This document shows positions 339 to 13,535 of a stretch of DNA of 26,333 nucleotides, one piece after another. The stretch lies in the IMG/VR virus record IMGVR_UViG_3300043775_002582, positions 1 to 26,333 of that record; one strand, 5' to 3'. The translations under genes and the position numbers were made by a program. Source of the DNA: a virus. Within the stretch, counting starts at the first letter, position 1; every line of letters begins with the position of its first letter. A model generated the notes under the pieces. The model did no database searches and had not been told where the DNA came from. It worked only from the letters and a program-made list of their open reading frames with translations.

Positions 339-1994
339 TTATTCTCCTAAGGTGTAGTCTATTAATAAAACATTATTTACTTTAATTCTAATATAATCAA
401 CCTCCTCCGATCCTCCACATGGAGTTCTGTCTCTGTCATACATATCTTGAACAAATGTACTTCCTGTAGGTGTCCATGTTGTATATGATGAACCGTTTGT
501 ACTATATTCTACCGTTAAATTAGGTGTTACAGGTCCACTTGTTCCGTTAAATGTAAATGTTACAGTTGTGACACTGGCATTATATGGTGTATCGTCTTGA
601 CAAAATTCATTTAAACCTTGTGATGATCCCATAGTTGCGGTTATACCTGTAACATTACCTGTATCACCTGAGTAGTTTGCGGTACAATCACAATCATTAG
701 TATAAACACTACCCACCATACTTATAATTTCAGATTGCCAATATCCTTTGTATTTCATTTGTTTATATAATCCTGGATATAATACCTTTCTACAAACTCC
801 ATTATCATCTAATATTGTATTTCCTTCATTTAACTTAATCGTTGACCATATTGGATCATTATCCAAACTAATTTGACCGTCACATCTTTCGGTGAAATTA
901 TAATAATATAATGGTGAACAATCACCACAATTATTTGAATAAACAGAACCTTCAACTGCTTGTATACCAACAGGTAAATTTTTATATGTTACAGGGTCTG
1001 TAAGTGGTAATATTGGTACTTGAACTGTTTGACCAGTAAATGCCCCATAATAACTTGTTATAGTGGCACAATAACCATCATCAACCACATTTCCAAGTTC
1101 ATTATATGTAACCATGGAATAAGTTAATCCAGTTTGTAATGATGAAAATTCAGGAATATTAAATGGTGGGGTTAGACCATATGGTGTTTCATCATATAGA
1201 TACGGCCATATACTATAAACTAATATATTTGCTTGATTATCACATCTTGTTGCACCATAAACATACCAATTAAATGTTAATCCAGTAAATGGTGGTTGAC
1301 AAGTGCTACAAGCATTATCTCCTGGTTCAGGTGTTAAACCATCTAAACTTATTGTTGATAATGATGGTGGAACATATTGATCGTCGATATGTACTACTGA
1401 TAAACATTGACCGTCAATTGTGAATACCTTTCCCTCTGCAATTTGTGTATTTGTTTTTAAACTTTTACCATAAATATTAAACGTATATCCAGTTGGGAAT
1501 CCACATGGTTTTGTCTCATCCACATAATATGATGTATTACCTGGATTTTCAAATGGATCGTAACCATCTTGTGCTGTACATCCAGATAAACTTATAATAC
1601 CAAAACCTGTGTTTGTTAGACTTACATATTCATAACCCATGTATTGACAATCACCTAATCTATAGTAATAATATAAATCGGTATTTGCCGGTTCCTGTGT
1701 TGGTGTTGGGGTTGGACTTGGTGTTGCGGTATTTGTTGGAGTTGGTGTTGGTGTATTAGTTGGTAAACCGACAATAGATTTAGTAATCTCATACGAACAC
1801 GATTCTCCTGTGGATTTAATTTTAACAATGGTTGTATTAACTGGAACATTACTAGTACCGTATCCCGCTTGTAAAGATGCTAACGATACTCCCGTTTCAA
1901 ATGCATCAACATATCCATCTATATTAGAATACAAACTGAAAAGTTCGGGTGTTCCTACTATTGAATTTAATGTTATGGTTATTGGTATTGGCAT
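339..1994 (-). CDS. Modular tail fibre/adhesin-like protein with Thr-Pro linker and three Cys-bracketed modules
   Basis: A 551-aa protein starting at ATG 1994. Residues 1-76 form a beta-rich N-terminal domain that resembles those of the 476-aa and 164-aa proteins upstream. Residues about 79-103 are a Thr-Pro linker. Three modules follow, at about 104-232, 236-359 and 361-437. Each begins with aromatic residues before a Cys (for example YYYNFTERCDGQ at 363-374), has a central G-x-C (C197, C309, C401), and closes with a Cys pair (C229/C232, C356/C359, C435/C437). Two of the closers are nearly identical: GSVYSNNCGDC and GSVYTNDCDC. Residues 446-551 form a separate C-terminal domain. There is no signal peptide. 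The position at the end of the baseplate/tail cluster and the modular design suggest a host-binding virion protein; no homologue could be named from the sequence alone. Confidence 0.72.
   Translation of the reverse strand: MPIPITITLNSIVGTPELFSLYSNIDGYVDAFETGVSLASLQAGYGTSNVPVNTTIVKIKSTGESCSYEITKSIVGLPTNTPTPTPTNTATPSPTPTPTQEPANTDLYYYYRLGDCQYMGYEYVSLTNTGFGIISLSGCTAQDGYDPFENPGNTSYYVDETKPCGFPTGYTFNIYGKSLKTNTQIAEGKVFTIDGQCLSVVHIDDQYVPPSLSTISLDGLTPEPGDNACSTCQPPFTGLTFNWYVYGATRCDNQANILVYSIWPYLYDETPYGLTPPFNIPEFSSLQTGLTYSMVTYNELGNVVDDGYCATITSYYGAFTGQTVQVPILPLTDPVTYKNLPVGIQAVEGSVYSNNCGDCSPLYYYNFTERCDGQISLDNDPIWSTIKLNEGNTILDDNGVCRKVLYPGLYKQMKYKGYWQSEIISMVGSVYTNDCDCTANYSGDTGNVTGITATMGSSQGLNEFCQDDTPYNASVTTVTFTFNGTSGPVTPNLTVEYSTNGSSYTTWTPTGSTFVQDMYDRDRTPCGGSEEVDYIRIKVNNVLLIDYTLGE
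1686..1760 (-). repeat. Thr-Pro linker encoded by degenerate TP/hexamer repeats (551-aa protein)
   Basis: Encodes residues 79-103, almost entirely T and P with occasional N, A, S and Q. It separates the shared N-terminal domain from the first Cys-bracketed module. Such T/P stretches are usually extended and flexible. The plus strand reads as G/T-rich GTTGGT-like units. Confidence 0.7.
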
Positions 1995-2017
1995 ATTATA
2001 TTAATCTTTTTTTATTT

Positions 2018-3448
2018 TTATGATCCCGTATTTAAACACTCTAACCCTGGTGGAGTAAGTGCAGATCCAAAACACACACCTGTTGATGTCGGTGTAATAT
2101 ATACATCTATTGCTTGACTTACCGGTATACTTACTCCATTTATTGATCCTTGTAAACCGCATCCATAATCACTAAGTAATGACCCCGCCGAGTTAGTAAA
2201 TCTACTCGATAAATAAGCTCCAGCGGCAAATACATTTACATTAACTTCAACATAATCACAAGTACTATCGGTTACCCTTAAAAATGCACCTAAATTCAAA
2301 TAACCTCCCGCATCTACACTTGGGCTCACTAAGAAGGTTTCGCCTTCTATTATTGATTTTTGTATACCAGATGTTGTATTATTAACCGGACCTAAAGTTG
2401 TGTTATATGTTTGGTAGACTAATTGTAAATTATTTGATACCGCATCGTATGGGGTATTTTGTCTTCCATAAATATTAACCGTAATTTGTGGTATTGGTGT
2501 TGGTGTAGGAGTTGGTTCATTAATAGATAAACAGTTTATACAAGTCCCACTTGGTAGTAATGTATTAGTAGAACCTGATCTCTTATAAAGTCTAACATAA
2601 TTACCTAACGTCGAATCATATGTTATTCCGGTTTGTGATATCCATATATATTGATCTGGACTCATTTCAGCCGACACCCAATTAAACCCTAATGCGTTAT
2701 CTGTCTCAACTGAAGTGGCATCACAAATATTTGTTGCTGAATATAACCACGCATCTACTCCATCGTAAATTGCATTAATAGGACTGGTATGTGTACATGA
2801 TGTGTTATCACCAAACTCAACATCACCAGGATCACCTACCCATAAATCATTTGCAACAATTCTATATGGTGTTGGGGTTGGTGTTGGTGGTAATGATGTT
2901 GGTGTTGCGGTTGGTATGTCGGTTGGTATGTTGGTTGGTATGTTGGTTGGTACATTCGTTGGTAGATTGGTTGGTACATTTGTTGGTATATTAGTTGGCA
3001 CCGAAGTTGGTACATTGGTCGGTGCTGCAGTTGGTGCTAACGTTGCGGGTAATCCATAAACTACATTAGCATCAAATGAACATGGATTAGGTGTATTTGT
3101 TGGTGTAGACGTTGGAATAGGTGTTGGACTTGGAGTTGGTGTAGGGGTCGGTGTGGTTGGCATTTGTATTCTTATTGGGTTAATTTCACTTAATACACAT
3201 CCTCCGTCATTAAGATTTGAGGGAACCGCCTTTATATAATACGTACCGTCAGGTACTATCACATATTTTGGAAAATCTCTTTTAAGTATATTACTATATC
3301 CCGACATTAAGGTATAATTTGTTAACGTATTACCCGTAATCGTACAACCTGAAACATTTCCTAATGTATCTCCAGTGCAATTATATAAATCAACATTCAA
3401 TATTGACGCACCTACAGTATCTAAACTTAATAATATGGTATATGGCAT
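2018..3448 (-). CDS. Modular tail fibre/adhesin-like protein with TP linker and PTN tetrapeptide repeats
   Basis: A 476-aa protein starting at ATG 3448. Residues 1-95 are an N-terminal domain beginning [13 protein letters not shown], related in layout to the starts of the 551-aa and 164-aa proteins. Residues 96-122 are a Thr-Pro linker, followed by a short Cys-containing spacer (C123). Residues about 139-186 are tandem PTN(V/I/L)-type tetrapeptides. A folded module lies at about 197-308 with Cys at 218, 242, 303 and 306, then a short TP linker (311-320) and a C-terminal domain at 321-476 with Cys at 397, 430, 459 and 471. The gene has its own upstream arrangement: an intrinsic terminator for the preceding gene at 3484-3509, then a TATTTATA motif, then the ATG. 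The role as a virion adhesin or fibre is inferred from modular design and location. Confidence 0.72.
2879..3034 (-). repeat. 12-bp tandem repeat encoding PTN(V/I/L) tetrapeptides
   Basis: On the plus strand, units such as GTTGGTATGTTG recur about every 12 bases. They encode P-T-N-(V/I/L) repeats at residues about 139-186 of the 476-aa protein, then grade into ordinary TP sequence up to residue 190. Unit length is a multiple of three, so gain or loss of units keeps the frame. The composition (PTN) differs from the plain TP linkers elsewhere. Confidence 0.75.
3083..3163 (-). repeat. Thr-Pro linker (476-aa protein)
   Basis: Encodes residues 96-122, a nearly uninterrupted T/P run with a few S, I and N. 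It links the N-terminal domain to the short Cys-containing spacer and the PTN repeat array. Confidence 0.65.
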
Positions 3449-3453
3449 ATTTC

Positions 3454-3461
3454 TATAAATA
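3454..3461 (-). promoter_or_regulatory. TATTTATA motif between terminator and 476-aa gene
   Basis: An exact TATTTATA octamer on the minus strand, five bases upstream of the ATG at 3448 and about 20 bases downstream of the intrinsic terminator at 3484-3509. Because the terminator should stop transcription from upstream, a promoter is expected in this short gap, which makes the motif (or the overlapping AT-rich sequence TATATAATAC just before it) a promoter candidate. Confidence 0.45.
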
Positions 3462-3480
3462 GTATTATATACAATTTAAA

Positions 3481-3509
3481 TAAAAAACCCCTCATAATAA
3501 AGGGGTTTT
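3481..3509 (-). terminator. Intrinsic (Rho-independent) terminator after the 164-aa gene
   Basis: A nine-base-pair stem (AAAACCCCT pairing with AGGGGTTTT, 3484-3492 with 3501-3509) encloses an eight-base loop. On the minus strand the stem is followed by more T (GGGGTTTTTTATTT). It begins 25 bases after the stop codon of the 164-aa gene. The stem is symmetrical, but the T-rich tail is better on the minus strand, in line with gene direction. Confidence 0.85.
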
Positions 3510-3533
3510 AATATTGTTATTTGTTTAAATATA

Positions 3534-4028
3534 TTATTCACAATCGGAACAATCAACATTTGAAGTACAAGGTGTTTCACAAGGCACTGATGTCATTAAT
3601 CCAGAGTCAGAGTCTATCTCTGTACCATTTCGTACACATACTGTTCTAGAAGAACCTGGTCCAACAAGCAATGAGGATAAAACATTATCTAAACATCTAT
3701 AATATGTGAATGTTATACCACCATCGTCTCGTCCACCCTCATTATAAACCGTATAACATTCACAATCTGACACTGGTTCAGATGTAACCCAAGCTATTTG
3801 TTCTGTACAAAATCCACCACTTTCAGAACCTGTACTTGTTATTGTTCCTCCTGTTATTGAATCCGATATACCTGTTGCAGTGTATCCAGTTGTAAGTACT
3901 GCTCTTGTTATTCCTGAGGCAATAAAAACTCCGTTTAATGCCCCGCCACTTGTTGTACCCGATATACTATAGTTACCAGATTGTGTGGTTCCCGATGTTT
4001 CTGCGGTTAATGTAAATGTTATTGTCAT
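3534..4028 (-). CDS. Small Cys-rich fibre/adhesin-like protein sharing the N-terminal domain of the two downstream genes
   Basis: A 164-aa protein starting at ATG 4028. The first ~80 residues are rich in T, S and G and resemble the starts of the 551- and 476-aa proteins (a hydrophobic M-x-x-x-hydrophobic start, a central S/T-G-Y, then S-x-G-x-C). There is no TP linker. The C-terminal half looks like one copy of the Cys-bracketed module: FTYYRCLDN, then VCVRNG, then a Cys cluster C150, C154, C160 and C163. It is therefore a minimal version of the architecture of its neighbours. A TATTTATA motif lies upstream, and a strong intrinsic terminator follows directly. Likely a virion surface protein; no named homologue recognised. 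Confidence 0.68.
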   Translation of the reverse strand: MTITFTLTAETSGTTQSGNYSISGTTSGGALNGVFIASGITRAVLTTGYTATGISDSITGGTITSTGSESGGFCTEQIAWVTSEPVSDCECYTVYNEGGRDDGGITFTYYRCLDNVLSSLLVGPGSSRTVCVRNGTEIDSDSGLMTSVPCETPCTSNVDCSDCE

Positions 4029-4044: not shown

Positions 4045-4052
4045 TATAAATA
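4045..4052 (-). promoter_or_regulatory. TATTTATA motif upstream of the 164-aa gene
   Basis: An exact octamer on the minus strand within AATAAGATATTTATAAAAAG, 16 bases before the ATG. The longer context closely matches that before the 303-aa gene (AATAAGAT, then ATATTTATAATAAAAG), which argues against chance. Confidence 0.42.
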
Positions 4053-4086: not shown

Positions 4087-7000
4087 TTACTCTGGACAAA
4101 GAACTTCATTACATATTCCACCTTCTGCATCTTGACATTCACTTTGACTATTATATATTATTGGACTCATTCCATACTGCCAACATTGTGTCGGTGGATT
4201 TGTTGGTGCTAACGGTTCCGGTGTAGGGGTTGGTGTACTGTATATTATATTCATTACATATTGTATACTCGCACATTCTGATCCACATCCACATGGAACG
4301 GTTAAATATGCGGAAGTATCGTTTTGACTAAATGGTAATTGTATGTTTGAATTATCATTTAAATAAACAACGACATATCCATTCATATTTCTTGGACTTG
4401 TGAAATCAACATAATATGTCCTATCATACTCGTAGTCGTTAGGTTCATAACCAGCTCCACATTGTTGGAAATTACTATCTGTTGATCCAAAAGCCGAAAC
4501 TCCGTCCGGTAATGAAGGTGTTGGTGTTGGTGTAGGTGTCATATATCCACAACTTGCCGAGTTACTTTCAATAAATGTGTCAACATAACCACAACTACCA
4601 TTTGCGGATCTGGAATATAAATTGTACCCATCACAAGTAAACATTAAAAAAGTACCTTCACTAGGACAAGGAGTCGGTGATGGTGTTGGTGTATCTGTTG
4701 GTGGTAAAGGTAATGGTGTTGCGGTTGGTGTTGCCGATGGTGTAGGTGTTGGAGTCGTCGTTGGACAAGGTGCTTGTGCTCTTATCGGTAAAGCCGGTCC
4801 GTCTAACACCCAATAAGAACTTCCATTAGAGAACCAACCTGTTTGACTTACAAGTGCTCCTGAATTATTTGAATACAAATAACATCCATTTGCTAAAGTT
4901 GAACAGTTTGAGTAATATGTTGTTGGGTTAGATACATAGTCTAAACATGCTTCCGGTCCATAACGATCGGCAAATGCTCCTTGTACAAATCCTAAACTAT
5001 GTGAATATAAAACCGGAGTATTAGTTGGTGTTGGGGTTGGAGTATTTGTATTTGTTGGTGTAGGTGTATATGTTGCCGGTTCAGGTGTTGTTGTATTTGT
5101 TGGTGTAGGAGTTGCAGGACAACTACAAGCGGTATTACTATAATTAATAAATGAAATTATCGCATCTGCTCCCGTTACTGTTCCATATTGTATACAATCG
5201 CTTATAGATTCTACCCCTGTTCCACCAAAAGTAACGACTTTTCCAACTCCACAACAATCTACATAACTAACATTACCTGGACTTTCAATATCAAAAGTAA
5301 CTGAAGTCACACAAGGAGGGAATGTTGGTGTTGGGGTTGGTGTATCGGTTGGAGGTAACGGCGAAGGTGTTGGAGTATTTGTGTTTGTTGGTGTTGGGGT
5401 ATATGTTGCTGGTTCAGGTGAAGGGGTTGGTGTAGGTGTATATGTTGCCGGTATTGGTGAAGGTGTTGGAGTTGGTATATCTGTAGGTAAAGGAGTCGGG
5501 GTTGGAGTACTGTTCTCAACTATAACATTCACATTAAAGTTACAATCAGGTGTAGGAGTTGGAGTTGGGGTGTTAGTAGGTGTTGGTGTAGGAGTACTGG
5601 TTATTATAATTAAATCTACATTAAAGTTACAATCTGGAGTTGGTGTTGGGGTAGGAGTTGGTGTAGGTTCGCTAGTTGGTGTTGGAGATGGGGTTGGGGT
5701 ACTAGTAATAACTACTAAATCTACATTAAAGTTACAATCAGGTGTTGGTGTAGGAGTTGGTGTGCCGGTTGGTGTAGGGGTTGGTGTGCTGGTTATAATA
5801 GTTAGATCTACATTAAAGTTACAATCAGGTGTTGGTGTAGGAGTTGGTGTACTAGTTGGTGTTGGTGTGGGGGTACTAGTAATAACTATCAAATCTACGT
5901 TAAAGTTACAGTCAGGTGTAGGAGTTGGGGTTGGAGTACTAGTTGGTGTTGGTGTAGGGGTACTAGTAATTATAGTTAAATCTACATTAAAGTTACAATC
6001 TGGTGTTGGTGTAGGAGTTGGGGTTGAAGATGGAGTTGGAGTTGGGGTACTGGTAATTATAGTTAGGTCTACATTAAAGTTACAATCAGGTGTAGGTGAT
6101 GGTGTCGGCGTTGCGGTTGCAGGTAATGGCGTTGGCGTTGCAGTTGGCGTTGCAGTTGCGGGTAGTGGCGTTGTGGTTGGCGTTGCAGTTGCAGGTAATG
6201 GACTTGGTGACGGGGTTGGAGTTGCTGTCGCAGGTAATGGAGTTGGGGTTGGTGAAGGTGTTGCAGTTGGTGTTGCAGTTGGTATTGGTGTATTAGTTGG
6301 TGTTGGAGTTGGTCCATAAACATATGTTGCGGAACCTCCACTAAATCTACAATCTTTTACATCATTTTGACCAATTGATACATATCCATAATCTAAATAA
6401 TCATTTACCGTACAATCATTTGGACCGTATTTGTAAGATGTGAATTTAATTTTTTCACGTCCTTCATTATCTATGAAAAATTCATATGATATTATTTTTT
6501 GTTTTGTTGTTCCTGTAATCGATGAATTACCAATTTCGGTTCCGTATTGTGTGTTTTTACCTTCACCGTCAATAGTTGATCCCGAATATGTATTAATATA
6601 TGTAACCGTATTTTGTATTGCTCTTTTCCACAATATTTTTAATTGTGTGTCATACTGTTCATTATAATCTGAAAGTGCATTGGTTGTTCCTCCGCTATAT
6701 AAACTAACACTAATACCATTTGTTGTAACAGTATTATCATTATTAAATGTTGTTATTCCCGTCAACGATGTTGCTCCACTGATTAAAACATACGTACACC
6801 CCGTAACATTCGTAGTTGTGTTTAGGGCGGAAGTATTTGCGGGATCTGTCATACCCGAATAAACTATACCATCAATTTCAAATATTGGGTAAAATTTAAC
6901 ATATCCATCAAATTTTGTTTCACCATCTTCATCACTTTCAATTGAAAACCCAAGATCAATATCGGCCTCTTCTCTTAAATAATTAAAATAACTATTATAC

Positions 7001-9408
7001 CCTGTAAAACCTGTTGGTATTTGTAAATCAAAATTTATATAATCATCAGTTTGTATAGGTTGACAACCATATTTGTATTGATATTTTGATCTACCAAAAA
7101 TATTGTTTGATATTAAATTACCTCCCGTCCATAAAGTTGTTGATGGTATAATTTGATCTATTACACTTGTCCAATATGGACTCATTTTTTGAATGAATAA
7201 ATTTAAATCGGAAATTGTATATGGTGGAAAATCTGTATGTGTAATATAATCTTGATAAATGTCTTCTAATGTAATATAGTTTTTCTTATATCTAATTAAA
7301 TTAGAATTTTTAATTTGTTCATGTAACATCTTATCAACGTATTCAAGAAATGTTACTCCCGTTTGTGGTGTTAAACTATTTGTACCAAATGTTGTACCTG
7401 TTGGTCCGAAATCTCTTGATTTACGATATATGTCATAATCCACAGCTTGAGCCGCAGATAAATAAACTTCAATATTTTTACGATTTAAAACTAATCCTGA
7501 ATTGTCAGTAAATGATTCTATTTGATTATTATCAATTACACTTTTTAATTTATATCCCGTATCTAAACCTGGTAAATTTCTATATATATTAAAATAATCT
7601 TCACCATAAGTGTAAGGACTATTTTTAGTTACTACATTTTTTATTCTACCTGTTAATGTTGAATTTTCGGTATCAATAATTAAAGGTGATTTATGTTGTG
7701 ATGTATTATCATACCAACCACTACCTTTTTGGAAAAAGTATTCTGTCGAACCTGTTATTCCTTTTGGTAAGAATGTCTCCCCATTAACCGGATAATTATC
7801 AGAATTAAATGTTGTGGTACCTGTAGTTATACCAGTATAATATGAATACGAAGGATATGTTACACCATCAATAGTTCCACCTGTTGGTAAGAATATTCCT
7901 GTTTTGTAAGTTTTAGTTCCCGATATAACATCATAAATGTCACTGTTTAAATCAAATGATTTAGGTAAAGATGTTACCTTATAAACATATTGATTTATTT
8001 TAATCATAGGTTCAGGTGCGCCCAAGAATTTTAAGAAAAATTCCAAAGACTGTCTTGTACCTTTTGATTTATATATGTAAGCTAAATTGACTAATAATCT
8101 TCTATAAAATTCATATTCCGCATCAATCAAAGATGTTCCCGATGTTAAACCAGAATATTGTTGAGTTGTTTTACTATATAATAATTCATCTAAACCTTTC
8201 TCATCAATTAAGTTAATTGTATCTAATCCTAAAGTATTTGCTAAGTTTTTTAATAATACATCAGGTACGTTATTAATACCGTCATAACTTACATTTCTCA
8301 TGTAAGCAATATTATCTATGTATTTTTTTACACTATCAAAACTTTGTCCATATAATTGAAATAATGATTCGGCCTTTTTATCGGGACTATCAAATTCAAA
8401 CAATTGAGGTGATGTTAAAAACCTAACGAATAAGTTAGACTTATAATCATCAATTTCATCTGCTATGTTACTTAGATTTGTTAAATAACTATCGTATTCT
8501 AAACCTGTAATTTTAATGTTCCAATCTTCCTTATCTGATAATGGCCAACTATAATTTACTGAAATTAATTCAGTTTTTGTTTCATCAAAACTATCTCTTG
8601 GTACTTTAAAACTTGAGGTATATTTTGGGAACGTATCTCTATTTAATAAACTTTCTTCTAAATCATCTAATCCACTAAAAAACTCATCTACGGTTTTATC
8701 GTTTGGTTTTAATAATATATCGGATGTATATGTTGTACCGGTAAATGGTTTACCACTTACCTTTAATAAAATTATATTATCACTATTAGGTTCAACATAT
8801 GAAATTACATCATATGTTTTTCCACTTATTGAAATTAAATAATTTTTAAAAGAAGTATAAAAATCTCTGTTTTTATTGATTGATGGTAATATGGTATTAC
8901 TTTTCGGTGTAACCATAACAATCGAAAATGGATTGTACAGTTTACTGTATTCAACTTGAAATTGAGTGGTGTTACTTATGTTATCGTATGTAATATTATT
9001 TGCAGTAAAATTTGTTACTTTAATTAAACTATTAGAATCAATTAAAATAGCCGCAGGAAAATTATTAATTATATTAGTTGTTGCAACACCTAATCTACTT
9101 TTTAATGATCCAAATAAAGATTTAGCAGCATCATTTTTAGACCCTTTAAATTTTATCTCTTTATTTTTTGTTGCTGTGCCGCTTGCAGTTGTACTTGAAG
9201 TTTGTCCTTTTAAATCATCTAATGTTAAAAAATTAGAAAATGGATTTGTTTTAAAATTCTTTGTATCTCTTTGTATTACCTCACTATCTAACGCAAAGTT
9301 CGTATTAGTCAATTGACCAGTACCCGTGGTAATTTGATTACCAACTAGATTGTCGCTGAATGTATCAGCACCACTCGCAGCTTGACTTGGAACTTTATAT
9401 TTTGCCAT
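4087..9408 (-). CDS. Giant baseplate/tail structural protein fused to a Thr-Pro-linked adhesin-like tail
   Basis: A 1773-aa protein whose ATG at 9408 overlaps the upstream stop codon (TAATG). Residues 1 to about 1032 are ordinary globular phage structural sequence. Around residue 446 the stretch [20 protein letters not shown] resembles a pattern common in tail-protein-I-like baseplate proteins of contractile-tail phages (family resemblance, not proven). From P1033 the chain becomes Thr-Pro linker, then seven tandem 29-residue repeats (D-C-N-F-N-V-D-L core, first Asp at 1108, 1137, 1166, 1195, 1224, 1259 and 1288). More TP linkers alternate with small Cys-containing domains, for example one starting at about 1364 ([15 protein letters not shown]) and one containing [15 protein letters not shown]. 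It ends with a short Cys-rich segment. The design suggests a baseplate-anchored protein carrying a long extended receptor-binding arm; this is inference. Confidence 0.78.
5000..5515 (-). repeat. Thr-Pro linkers flanking a small Cys domain (1773-aa protein)
   Basis: Two T/P-rich stretches (about 5020-5115 and 5316-5515) flank a folded module of about 65 residues that contains a CC pair and a C-S-C. The motifs [17 protein letters not shown] and [19 protein letters not shown] recur on both sides, indicating duplication within the linker. Confidence 0.6.
5518..6105 (-). repeat. Seven-copy 87-bp tandem repeat (29-aa unit)
   Basis: The core ACATTAAAGTTACAATC (plus strand, one copy with a single base change) starts at 5531, 5618, 5723, 5810, 5897, 5984 and 6071. 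Spacings are 87, 105, 87, 87, 87 and 87 bases, all multiples of three. Each unit encodes a DCNFNVDL-type core with one Cys, then ITSTPTPTP-type linker. The 105-bp unit carries six extra residues of TP linker. The copy nearest the C-terminus is the most diverged ([12 protein letters not shown]). Confidence 0.92.
6106..6315 (-). repeat. Long Thr-Pro/Ala linker preceding the 87-bp array
   Basis: Encodes residues about 1033-1102 of the 1773-aa protein, including repeated [10 protein letters not shown] units. It marks the switch from globular structural sequence to the adhesin-like arm. The plus strand is strongly G/T-rich. Confidence 0.7.
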
Positions 9409-10329: not shown

Positions 10330-10337
10330 TATAAATA
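10330..10337 (-). promoter_or_regulatory. TATTTATA motif upstream of the 303-aa gene
   Basis: An exact octamer on the minus strand, ten bases before the ATG at 10319, in the gap after the stop codon of the 388-aa gene. The flanks resemble those of the motif at 4045-4052. Confidence 0.4.
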
Positions 10338-11513: not shown

Positions 11514-13535
11514 TTATGAGAAAATTAATCTAGCATATTTTTGATTATCACTATCAGGACTACTTGTTATTGTAAAATCATGAACCCCAACTCCTTTACT
11601 AAATGATTGTGATTCTATTTTTGGAAATTGTGTATTTGTCGAAGTTATTGTTAAACTCGCACCTTCTGTTAAAAGACCAGTATTTGAACATCCTGAACAT
11701 ACACCTGAAAAGACTTCAAATGTAACCGTAACAGTTCCACTATTTACGGTTAAAGTTCCATTTGCGGTCCCATTTACGGTTCCTTGGGTATTATACGTTC
11801 CTGTTACCGTATATGGTAATGGTGTGGATGTTGGTGGTAATGGTGTCGACGTTGGTGTTGCCGTTACCACACCAGGTATAGGAGATGCTGTTGGGGTCGG
11901 AGTTGATGCTGATGGGTCAATTGTTGGGGTTGGGGTTGGGGTTGCTGGTATTGGTGTCACAGTTGGTGTTGCAGTTGCTATTGGGGTCGGAGTTGGAGTT
12001 GGACAAATACTTCCTCCACTTGCCGTTATTACAACATTATTTGTGCCTGGATTTGTATCGGAATATGTATTACCATTTATGGTGTAAGTGTAACCGTCAT
12101 CTCCAAGTACTAATTGTCCATCATAAAAATCAAAATATGGATATCCTATTGACAATGCGATAATATCACTATTACAACGTTCTAATCTATAATATACAAG
12201 TGATCCTAAAAGTGTTGGTTCTGGTGTTGGTGTTATTGTTGGTATACTTGTTGCAAATGGTGTTGAAGTCGGTCTTGGTGTTGGAGTTGGGGTTGATGTT
12301 GTAACAGGTAATGGTGTTGGTGTTGCCGGTACTGTTGCTCCTCCCTTTTCATAAAATGTAATACTATTATTAACGGTATTTCCAGTACCAATTCTACCTA
12401 ACTTTGTTGTTCCTGTATATCTAAATATTTCATATGTTCTATCAAAATTATCAAAATCAATTTGATAATACATATCTTTTTCTTCTGTTATATTATAACT
12501 TGTTGTTTGACCTGAATTTATAAAATCTAATATCTCACCTCTATCCGCATTGAAAAATTTTGCGGTCATGAAAAATGTATTCATTCCATGATAAAATGGT
12601 GTTTTTTGACCGGGTTTATCATTCGTATTATTTATAATTTCATATGATAGATTTGGGTATTCAAATGTTTGTCCTGTCCAACCGATTAATGTGGTTGTTC
12701 CTATTGGTATATTAACTTGTGTTATAACATTATTCTCATTCATAAATAATATAGTCTGTAGTGTGGTTGCAGTAAAACTATATTTATCTAATGTTGTTGT
12801 TCCACTTAAATTAGTGTCAGTTAAAACACTCTCATTATCAAACCAAAACAAATACATGTTTTCTTTGTTTCTATAATTTGAACCTGTAAAAACTGGAACA
12901 AATATATTATACCCATAGTTATTACCTGTATGAAAATATTTTTCACCTAAGGGTAATGCTAAATTTTTAGAATTTATTAATCTTCTGTTTTGTCTTGTTG
13001 GTGGTTCACATGCTAACTCGTTTTCAGAAATAAAAGTCCACCATAGTGTTGTTCCTGAAATTGGTGGTGTGTTATTTGTACTACCCGATACAGATACACA
13101 TTTATATTTTTTATTATTGTAATTTACATAATCGTTGAAATTAAATGTGGTATAGTCATTCCATAACTTTTGTGGTGTTTTAAAAAACTCTAACCTAAAG
13201 AAACTTTCGATTGATTGTTTTGTCATCAATTGATTTTCTTGTGTTGATATACCGACAGGATTATAATCTAAAACATAATTTGGTGTATCTCCACTTGTTG
13301 CAAAATAAAATTGAAACCATATGTCGGTTTGTGACATTGTAATACCACTGATTGTTTTATCATATGGTTTATGAATGTATCTAACTGTTTCATAATTTTT
13401 AGATGGATTAATAATATCTTTTAAAATCTCATCTTCAAAATCGGCAAGATTATCCTGCCAACCCAAATCTGTTCTAAAATTTTGTTCACTATTAACTACA
13501 ATATTTAAATTGTTACTATTTTTTAAAATTTCCAT
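11514..13535 (-). CDS. Structural protein with two Thr-Pro-linked C-terminal modules, 673 aa
   Basis: The ATG at 13535 overlaps the stop codon of the upstream 615-aa gene by one base (TAATG). Residues 1-400 are globular structural sequence that starts MEILKNSNNLNIVV and carries no TP repeats. From about residue 401 the chain is modular: a TP linker, then a module of about 70 residues beginning LVYYRLERCNSDII with the DDGY central motif and a closing Cys. A second, longer TP linker follows, then a C-terminal domain of about 100 residues rich in T, G and V with a C-x-x-C-like pair (GVCSGCS). The first module resembles the Cys-bracketed modules of the 551-aa protein. This is the same plan as the 1773-aa protein, on a smaller scale. 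A baseplate or distal tail role is inferred. Confidence 0.74.
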   Translation of the reverse strand: MEILKNSNNLNIVVNSEQNFRTDLGWQDNLADFEDEILKDIINPSKNYETVRYIHKPYDKTISGITMSQTDIWFQFYFATSGDTPNYVLDYNPVGISTQENQLMTKQSIESFFRLEFFKTPQKLWNDYTTFNFNDYVNYNNKKYKCVSVSGSTNNTPPISGTTLWWTFISENELACEPPTRQNRRLINSKNLALPLGEKYFHTGNNYGYNIFVPVFTGSNYRNKENMYLFWFDNESVLTDTNLSGTTTLDKYSFTATTLQTILFMNENNVITQVNIPIGTTTLIGWTGQTFEYPNLSYEIINNTNDKPGQKTPFYHGMNTFFMTAKFFNADRGEILDFINSGQTTSYNITEEKDMYYQIDFDNFDRTYEIFRYTGTTKLGRIGTGNTVNNSITFYEKGGATVPATPTPLPVTTSTPTPTPRPTSTPFATSIPTITPTPEPTLLGSLVYYRLERCNSDIIALSIGYPYFDFYDGQLVLGDDGYTYTINGNTYSDTNPGTNNVVITASGGSICPTPTPTPIATATPTVTPIPATPTPTPTIDPSASTPTPTASPIPGVVTATPTSTPLPPTSTPLPYTVTGTYNTQGTVNGTANGTLTVNSGTVTVTFEVFSGVCSGCSNTGLLTEGASLTITSTNTQFPKIESQSFSKGVGVHDFTITSSPDSDNQKYARLIFS
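11815..12003 (-). repeat. Second Thr-Pro linker of the 673-aa protein
   Basis: Encodes a T/P stretch with A, S, I and V interruptions, between the YYRLERC module and the C-terminal domain. The plus strand contains runs such as GGTTGGGGTTGGGGTTG, G-rich on the template strand. Confidence 0.65.
12212..12334 (-). repeat. First Thr-Pro linker of the 673-aa protein
   Basis: Encodes residues from about 401 to 441, the junction between the globular N-terminal 400 residues and the first Cys-bracketed module. Confidence 0.65.

Follow-up and report, generated by a model that had tools for sequence, protein, structure and literature searches.

Introduction

Kuttervirus phages (Ackermannviridae) carry several receptor-binding proteins each, the tail spike proteins (TSPs) TSP1 to TSP4, and published passages on this group describe conserved, type-specific N-termini as well as receptor-binding modules that are swapped among TSP1, TSP3 and TSP4, with a conserved motif where the similarity starts (PMC8432352). 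On a broader scale, a survey of domain mosaicism describes, in the parts that bear on this question, C-terminal fragments that are exchanged behind conserved N-termini, and places tail fibres and tail spikes in the group of phage protein classes with the strongest mosaicism (Nat Commun 2023;14:7460, PMC10684548). As far as these passages go, Kuttervirus TSP module swapping is the closest known case, and phage protein domain mosaicism the general frame, for the genes analyzed in this study. These are three neighboring genes, here called A, B and C, on a metagenomic virus sequence of 26,333 nt (IMG/VR record IMGVR_UViG_3300043775_002582; this whole stretch is referred to as the window). The data suggest, at a probability of a little under 0.6, that an uncultured group of T4-like phages uses A, B and C as short tail adhesins, in which position-bound N-terminal heads of one superfamily carry exchangeable modules.

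The comparison with the described systems reveals both similarities and differences. As in the Kuttervirus TSPs, modules in this group are common to different carrier types. However, the passages on Kuttervirus describe beta-helix spikes in a branched complex, whereas the A, B, C and Y heads described below make up one small beta-rich superfamily; moreover, many of the joints seen here are proline-threonine (PT) linkers, and the exchange extends to two larger tail proteins. As to homology with TSP1-4, direct sequence comparison by tblastn (E 1e-3) gave no phage record that matched A, B, D or e (D and e being the genes that flank the three). The mosaicism survey, judging from the same parts, covers phage proteins broadly, whereas the exchange reported here occurs among neighboring, ordered carrier genes of one uncultured group and also within a genome. 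A further parallel comes from Borg amino-acid tandem repeats, described as rapidly evolving, often Pro/Thr-rich and disordered, and frequent in extracellular proteins (PMC9879509). The linkers here are likewise Pro/Thr-rich, but Borgs are archaeal, and the passages of that paper on the repeats do not describe module exchange between carriers.

Results

Architecture of A, B and C

All three genes are present as the first-pass annotation had described them, with A at 339-1994 (551 aa), B at 2018-3448 (476 aa) and C at 3534-4028 (164 aa). They lie on the minus strand, as do all named genes in the open reading frame (ORF) list of the whole window, and this strand applies to the gene parts, octamers and terminator of the window given below. 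In C, a C-type head (residues 1-88; 3765-4028), recognized by its profile match to A and by its hidden Markov model (HMM) family, is followed without a linker by a module (residues 89-164; 3537-3764) that is also found at the C-terminus of D homologues. In B, profiles, the HMM family and a structure model delimit a B-type head (residues 1-93; 3170-3448). It is followed by PT linkers with a short CSFDANVV stretch between them (approximately residues 94-201; 2846-3169), module 1 (approximately residues 202-304; 2537-2845), a second linker visible in the sequence (approximately residues 305-327; 2468-2536) and module 2 (approximately residues 328-476; 2021-2467). Module 1 also occurs behind an A-type head (locus record L003) and in homologues of the large protein G (L035, L048 and L053). 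Module 2 was delimited by the search for relatives and gave weak fold matches to a pilin and a carbohydrate-binding module (Z up to 5.8) from a low-confidence model. In A, an A-type head (residues 1-79; 1758-1994) is joined by a PT linker (residues 80-107; 1674-1757) to a module region (residues 108-551; 342-1673) that was defined by the search for relatives, the model and the fold search. Its last domain (residues 442-551) resembles FN3 domains in the model (best row Z 6.8, rmsd 3.0 over 74 residues), though this likeness may be only a common arrangement.

The structure models are consistent with this division. Block means of the predicted local distance difference test (pLDDT) were 70-95 over residues 1-80 of A and 75-88 in the B head, and fell below 50 in the linkers (residues 80-103 in A); model B was mostly below 50 outside the head. 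The heads of A and B are thus predicted with confidence to be beta-rich, as the first-pass annotation had proposed.

Modules are variable and shared between carriers

Relatives were taken from IMG/VR, comprising 51 loci found through D and the best 80 of 143 found through e. The window itself, listed among the loci as L011, was left out, as were the remote L061 in later analyses and 6 duplicate loci in the locus comparison. Merging of identical proteins reduced 466 to 263, and merging of modules at 95% identity reduced 373 to 340. In the redundant set, 86 of 332 heads were unclassified.

A common head with variable ends had been proposed for the three proteins, and this pattern was recovered in the relatives. 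Pairs of heads could be aligned more often than the remainder of the same proteins (215/325 versus 18/325 for C-type, 26/45 versus 1/45 for A-type and 102/406 versus 33/406 for B-type), a result favored by the sorting of types by their heads. Within the window, the C-terminal parts of the three proteins are unrelated.

The modules are not tied to one kind of head. Relatives of residues 108-551 of A, whole or in part, were found in G homologues as well as behind heads of the A, B and M types; relatives of residues 196-475 of B occurred behind an A-type head and in G homologues, and D homologues ended in relatives of residues 89-163 of C. Of the 340 non-redundant modules, 140 had a relative on a different type of carrier, 45 of them at 60% identity or more. 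These cross-carrier relationships amount to 242 pairs, of which 79 involve unclassified heads.

Several cases can be followed at the DNA level. A match of 916 bp at 88.6% DNA identity joins window B to an A-type gene of L054, starting at linker residue 181 in B and at residue 232 in the L054 gene and running past the stop codon of B; the heads of these two genes each match their own counterparts, unlike the swapped remainder. Residues 89-435 of window A match G of L001 (1050 bp, 78.4%), and the end of window C matches the D end of L006 (243 bp, 88.9%). Copies are also present within single records, where the D end of L006 matches its own C (226 bp, 89.8% DNA identity) and G of L012 matches its own B-type gene (87% over 84 aa). 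The same chimeras recur on separate contigs, with a C module at the D end in L006, L007 and L008 and a B module in the G homologues of L035, L048, L053 and L057.

Relationship of the heads

The first-pass annotation had claimed that A, B and C share an N-terminal domain and had named pairwise profile alignment as one way to check it. BLASTP among the three proteins returned PT linkers or chance matches only. When heads were aligned together with their relatives (hhalign), A and C matched at a probability of 96% (score 50.3) and A and B weakly at 24% (score 23.8), whereas comparison of the head profiles with 18 module profiles gave scores of 11.2 at most. The claim is therefore clear for A and C; for A and B it is weaker and depends on the threshold at which intermediates are admitted, and B and C do not match directly. 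The central S/T/A-G-Y motif that had been noticed in the heads is equivalent in A and C, but the SGY of B does not fall on the AGY of A in the A-B alignment.

Iterated HMM searches were run against a set made up of 171 heads, 3944 chunks of other protein sequence and, as decoys, 342 heads that had been shuffled or reversed. With the window A head as seed and inclusion at 1e-3, 73 heads were gathered (31 C-, 18 B-, 13 A- and 11 Y-type), including the heads of window C (5e-18) and window B (2e-13). A C-type seed (from the L006 gene) found A at about 1e-17 with inclusion at 1e-4 and at 7e-16 with inclusion at 1e-3. The window B seed reached A-type heads at L006:6756 (2e-14) and at L029:17789 and L095:9369 (both 5e-4), not counting duplicates. 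None of the 342 shuffled or reversed heads was included in these runs; other chunks entered in numbers from 0 to 7, most of them C-like domains within larger tail proteins. The A, B, C and Y heads therefore form one HMM family, and M and P lie outside it.

The predicted structures of the A and B heads have a similar though not identical order of elements, B having extra short strands and lacking a confident last strand. In a viral fold search, model A matched two 77-aa proteins of Virus NIOZ-UU157 (target template modeling scores of 0.78 and 0.86); that these are stand-alone heads is a guess. In the general fold search with model A, residues 442-551 took up the list and the head was hardly represented; with model B mostly of low confidence outside its head, no fold is assigned to the heads. 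A C-like head domain was also found within larger tail proteins, in chunks starting at residue 321 or 621 (L037 16520-18607, L094 5800-7575, L096 3186-5750 and L112 4681-6522), which suggests that a head can also be fused behind other domains.

Head order along the genome

The interval between D and e holds 0 to 5 genes in the 56 locus records with both ends, a redundant set. Head order was analyzed in 56 clusters, no two of which have an identical protein in common. Pairs of heads conformed to the order P/Y, C, M, B/A in 95 cases and broke it in 2, both in L138, and none of 2000 label shuffles was as ordered as the observed arrangement, in a test that ignores the kinship of clusters and includes many incomplete ones. 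C-type and M-type heads were each present at most once per cluster, again with many clusters incomplete; C was absent from 25 of the 56 and M from 28. B- and A-type heads, counted together, occurred twice in 8 of the 56 clusters.

Tail gene neighborhood and signs of adhesion

The minus-strand gene order in the window is an exonuclease-like end piece, a DnaB-like helicase, ribonucleotide reductase, gp25, gp6, the four large proteins I, H, G and F, then E, D, C, B, A and the start of e. By PHROGs match, gp25 and gp6 are baseplate wedge subunits; they lie upstream of A, B and C in the same direction, and the interval of the tail gene cluster that holds A, B and C recurs in relatives in the locus comparison. 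Judged by its sequence, this is the baseplate gene cluster of a T4-like tail, and A, B and C lie within it.

Adhesion domains were found in some of the genes of this interval (slot genes) in relatives. In single scans, a VWA domain followed an M-type head in L138 and, slightly below the Pfam cut-off, a C-type head in L074. Y-type slot proteins with SprB repeats and cadherin domains are encoded at L117 2027-6145, L126 3680-7738, L083 2705-6730, L120 2153-7132 and L050 16905-20432. VWA, SprB and cadherin are adhesion domains in known proteins, SprB being named after the Flavobacterium gliding adhesin, and their presence in some relatives is the reason why the slot proteins as a set are read as adhesins. 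Together with the gp25/gp6 neighborhood they support a tail-adhesin role for the three proteins, which had been read from the sequence alone as fibre or spike subunits.

The two larger tail proteins that take part in module sharing have a conserved N-terminal part, as defined by comparison with relatives, and a variable linker-and-module part. In D (1773 aa) these are residues 1-1030 (6319-9408) and residues 1031-1773 (4090-6318), the variable part of D homologues holding modules common to C-, B- and A-type genes and to G. In G (673 aa) they are residues 1-402 (12330-13535) and residues 403-673 (11517-12329), where an A or B module sits in relatives. D of the window also has a tandem repeat (5531-6098) of 6.3 copies of an 87-bp unit that encodes a C-x-F-[DN]-V-[DN] strand set between PT linkers. 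Beads of this kind directly follow a linker in 25 of 55 D proteins and in 5 of 11 Y-type slot proteins. The F homologue of L054 (7900-9065) is present as two ORFs of 177 and 207 aa that jointly cover most of the 388-aa F at 96-99% identity, and a frameshift or an assembly error is possible there.

On its other side the variable interval is bordered by the conserved gene e, which is about 700 aa long in relatives and of which the window holds the start (2-310), as defined by locus comparison. Downstream of e, a Holliday junction resolvase-like gene is followed by DNA primase, exonuclease and SbcD-like genes (L054 21377-21985; L012 19933-22626), so that the exchange region is bordered by recombination-type genes. 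The window proteins scanned against PHROGs did not include a terminase.

Candidate promoter element and terminator

An octamer search located the element TATTTATA upstream of E (10330-10337), C (4045-4052), B (3454-3461) and e (315-322), with 4-16 nt between the end of the octamer and the start codon; a fifth sense copy is present elsewhere in the window. In 20 loci chosen from 139, 72 of 92 sense copies lay at most 45 nt upstream of a gene, in a zone that holds 2.9% of bases. The T4 late element TATAAATA is the reverse complement of TATTTATA, and by its sequence and placement TATTTATA looks like a late promoter. A strong hairpin with a T run between C and B (3482-3509) is a predicted intrinsic terminator. 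Its sequence and place are similar in many relatives despite variable flanking genes, and in a redundant set of 107 locus records, 44 have a terminator hairpin with a T run behind the first slot gene. Neither this exchange nor the TATTTATA element was found to have been described in the literature covered, which is without preprints and most subscription journals.

Relatives and probable host

Some contigs of relatives are 200-335 kb long, and 6 of 9 large relatives carry a gene for ribosomal protein S21 (PF01165). Freshwater Bacteroidetes phages with genomes up to 331 kb and an S21 gene have been described (ISME Commun 2022;2:31, PMC9723584). Because the large relatives here resemble these bS21-encoding phages in this gene, a Bacteroidetes host is likely. 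The likeness consists of the S21 gene, and the passages of PMC9723584 on these phages do not describe the tail genes reported here. Against a phage collection, gp6 matched 8 records, 6 of which cover 98-99% of its length at 25-28% identity; the matching records include Flavobacterium phage immuto and Microcystis phage Mel-JY01. The A-type head gave nothing better than E 4 in the phage collection, and no relative of D was found in the genome collection.

Discussion

The arrangement described above suggests a model in which each small beta-rich head would dock its protein on the baseplate or tail, the place being set by head type. The flexible PT linker would give reach in A and B, C being without one, and the putative binding module at the end of each of the three proteins would bind the cell. 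Recombination may enter at the linker or at the border between head and module and leave near the gene end. By this route modules could move among A-, B- and C-kind genes and the C-terminal parts of G and D, both between phages and within one genome, and exchange at linkers and gene ends would re-assign them among the arms.

Several results weigh against this model. With regard to a common head, B and C gave no direct match (hhalign probability 0.2%, score 6.1). At inclusion 1e-4 the A seed gathered C and left out the tested B heads, which joined only at the looser 1e-3; the head of window A was missed in the iterated search from a B-type seed (the L003 gene). No M- or P-type head entered the 73-head family gathered by the A seed at 1e-3, and the 77-aa proteins matched by model A were absent from the results when the viral fold search was run with model B. 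With regard to function, window A, B and C match no PHROGs or Pfam family, a sub-threshold PT disordered repeat in B being the only signal, and PDB sequence searches with the A profile (best E 0.27), the B profile and the C protein found no structure. Profile searches of the PDB with the D, I, E and H alignments likewise gave nothing better than E 0.27. Among 56 slot proteins from relatives searched with Pfam at E 1e-3, 2 had SprB and 2 had VWA, most modules being without a sign of adhesion. No isolate phage was found with a relative of A, B, D or e in the tblastn search (phage collection, E 1e-3). One B-type gene of 141 aa, present in L019 (11251-11676) and as the same gene in L004 (10001-10426), consists of a head and a linker without a module and is thus an empty carrier. 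With regard to the route of exchange, the 5' ends of cross-type matches lay at linkers in 48 of 72 cases against 0.23 expected, a figure favored by the masking of linkers, and breakpoints cannot be placed inside the linkers because PT linkers resemble each other.

Another explanation is that the heads are not docking domains at all, the proteins being capsid decorations or released products and the head a mere common beta-sandwich start. Ig-like and FN3-like domains are indeed frequent decoration domains, no docking partner has been identified, and the C-like head inside larger proteins of L037, L094, L096 and L112 would fit such a use. However, the genes are flanked on both sides by conserved genes of the baseplate cluster, and they have modules in common with G and D of that cluster. 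The heads, moreover, are the part that is kept and ordered, and a decoration role is therefore considered unlikely.

It is likewise unlikely that the modules were exchanged long ago and now diverge slowly with little ongoing exchange. Identity below 60% in 203 of the 242 cross-carrier pairs is what such a history would leave behind. On the other hand, the B module behind an A-type head in L003 and L054 is 90% identical to that of the window, whereas identity between the phages is 86% in the conserved part of D, which suggests that this transfer is probably no older than the split of the phages themselves.

The first-pass annotation had interpreted the three proteins as paralogous fibre subunits that compete for one tail attachment site. 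The heads are related by profiles and by HMM, as this would require, and two B/A heads stand together in 8 of the 56 clusters, so that competition between B-type and A-type heads is possible. For the set as a whole, competing copies would be expected to replace each other and to lose their order, but the head order is fixed, C and M are never duplicated in the 56 clusters, and C has its own terminator and TATTTATA element. Separate sites fit these observations better, and competition for a single site appears rather improbable. It is very improbable that metagenome assembly or low-complexity linkers have created a false picture of module sharing, for although PT-coding DNA is repetitive and the loci are metagenomic, the matches lie between linkers or persist with linkers masked, the chimeras recur on separate contigs (C module at the D end in L006/L007/L008, B module in G of L035/L048/L053/L057) and the copy within L006 has diverged.

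The reading preferred here, of position-bound heads with exchangeable modules, can be taken one step further, though only tentatively. The ordered P/Y-C-M-B-A head set may be a positional plug-and-socket system in which each adhesin has its own place on the baseplate, with PT-linker DNA and gene ends as general recombination joints and one pool of modules serving many heads and the ends of two large tail proteins. The 73-head family and the defined set of modules make it testable whether gene order encodes position in the particle and whether disordered linkers are recombination joints, and a single cultivated relative or a virion structure would open both questions to test. Receptor change is usually studied in single fibres or spikes, whereas the exchange described here takes place among several ordered carriers at once. 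Such trading of modules would let a phage re-equip itself with new host-binding modules.

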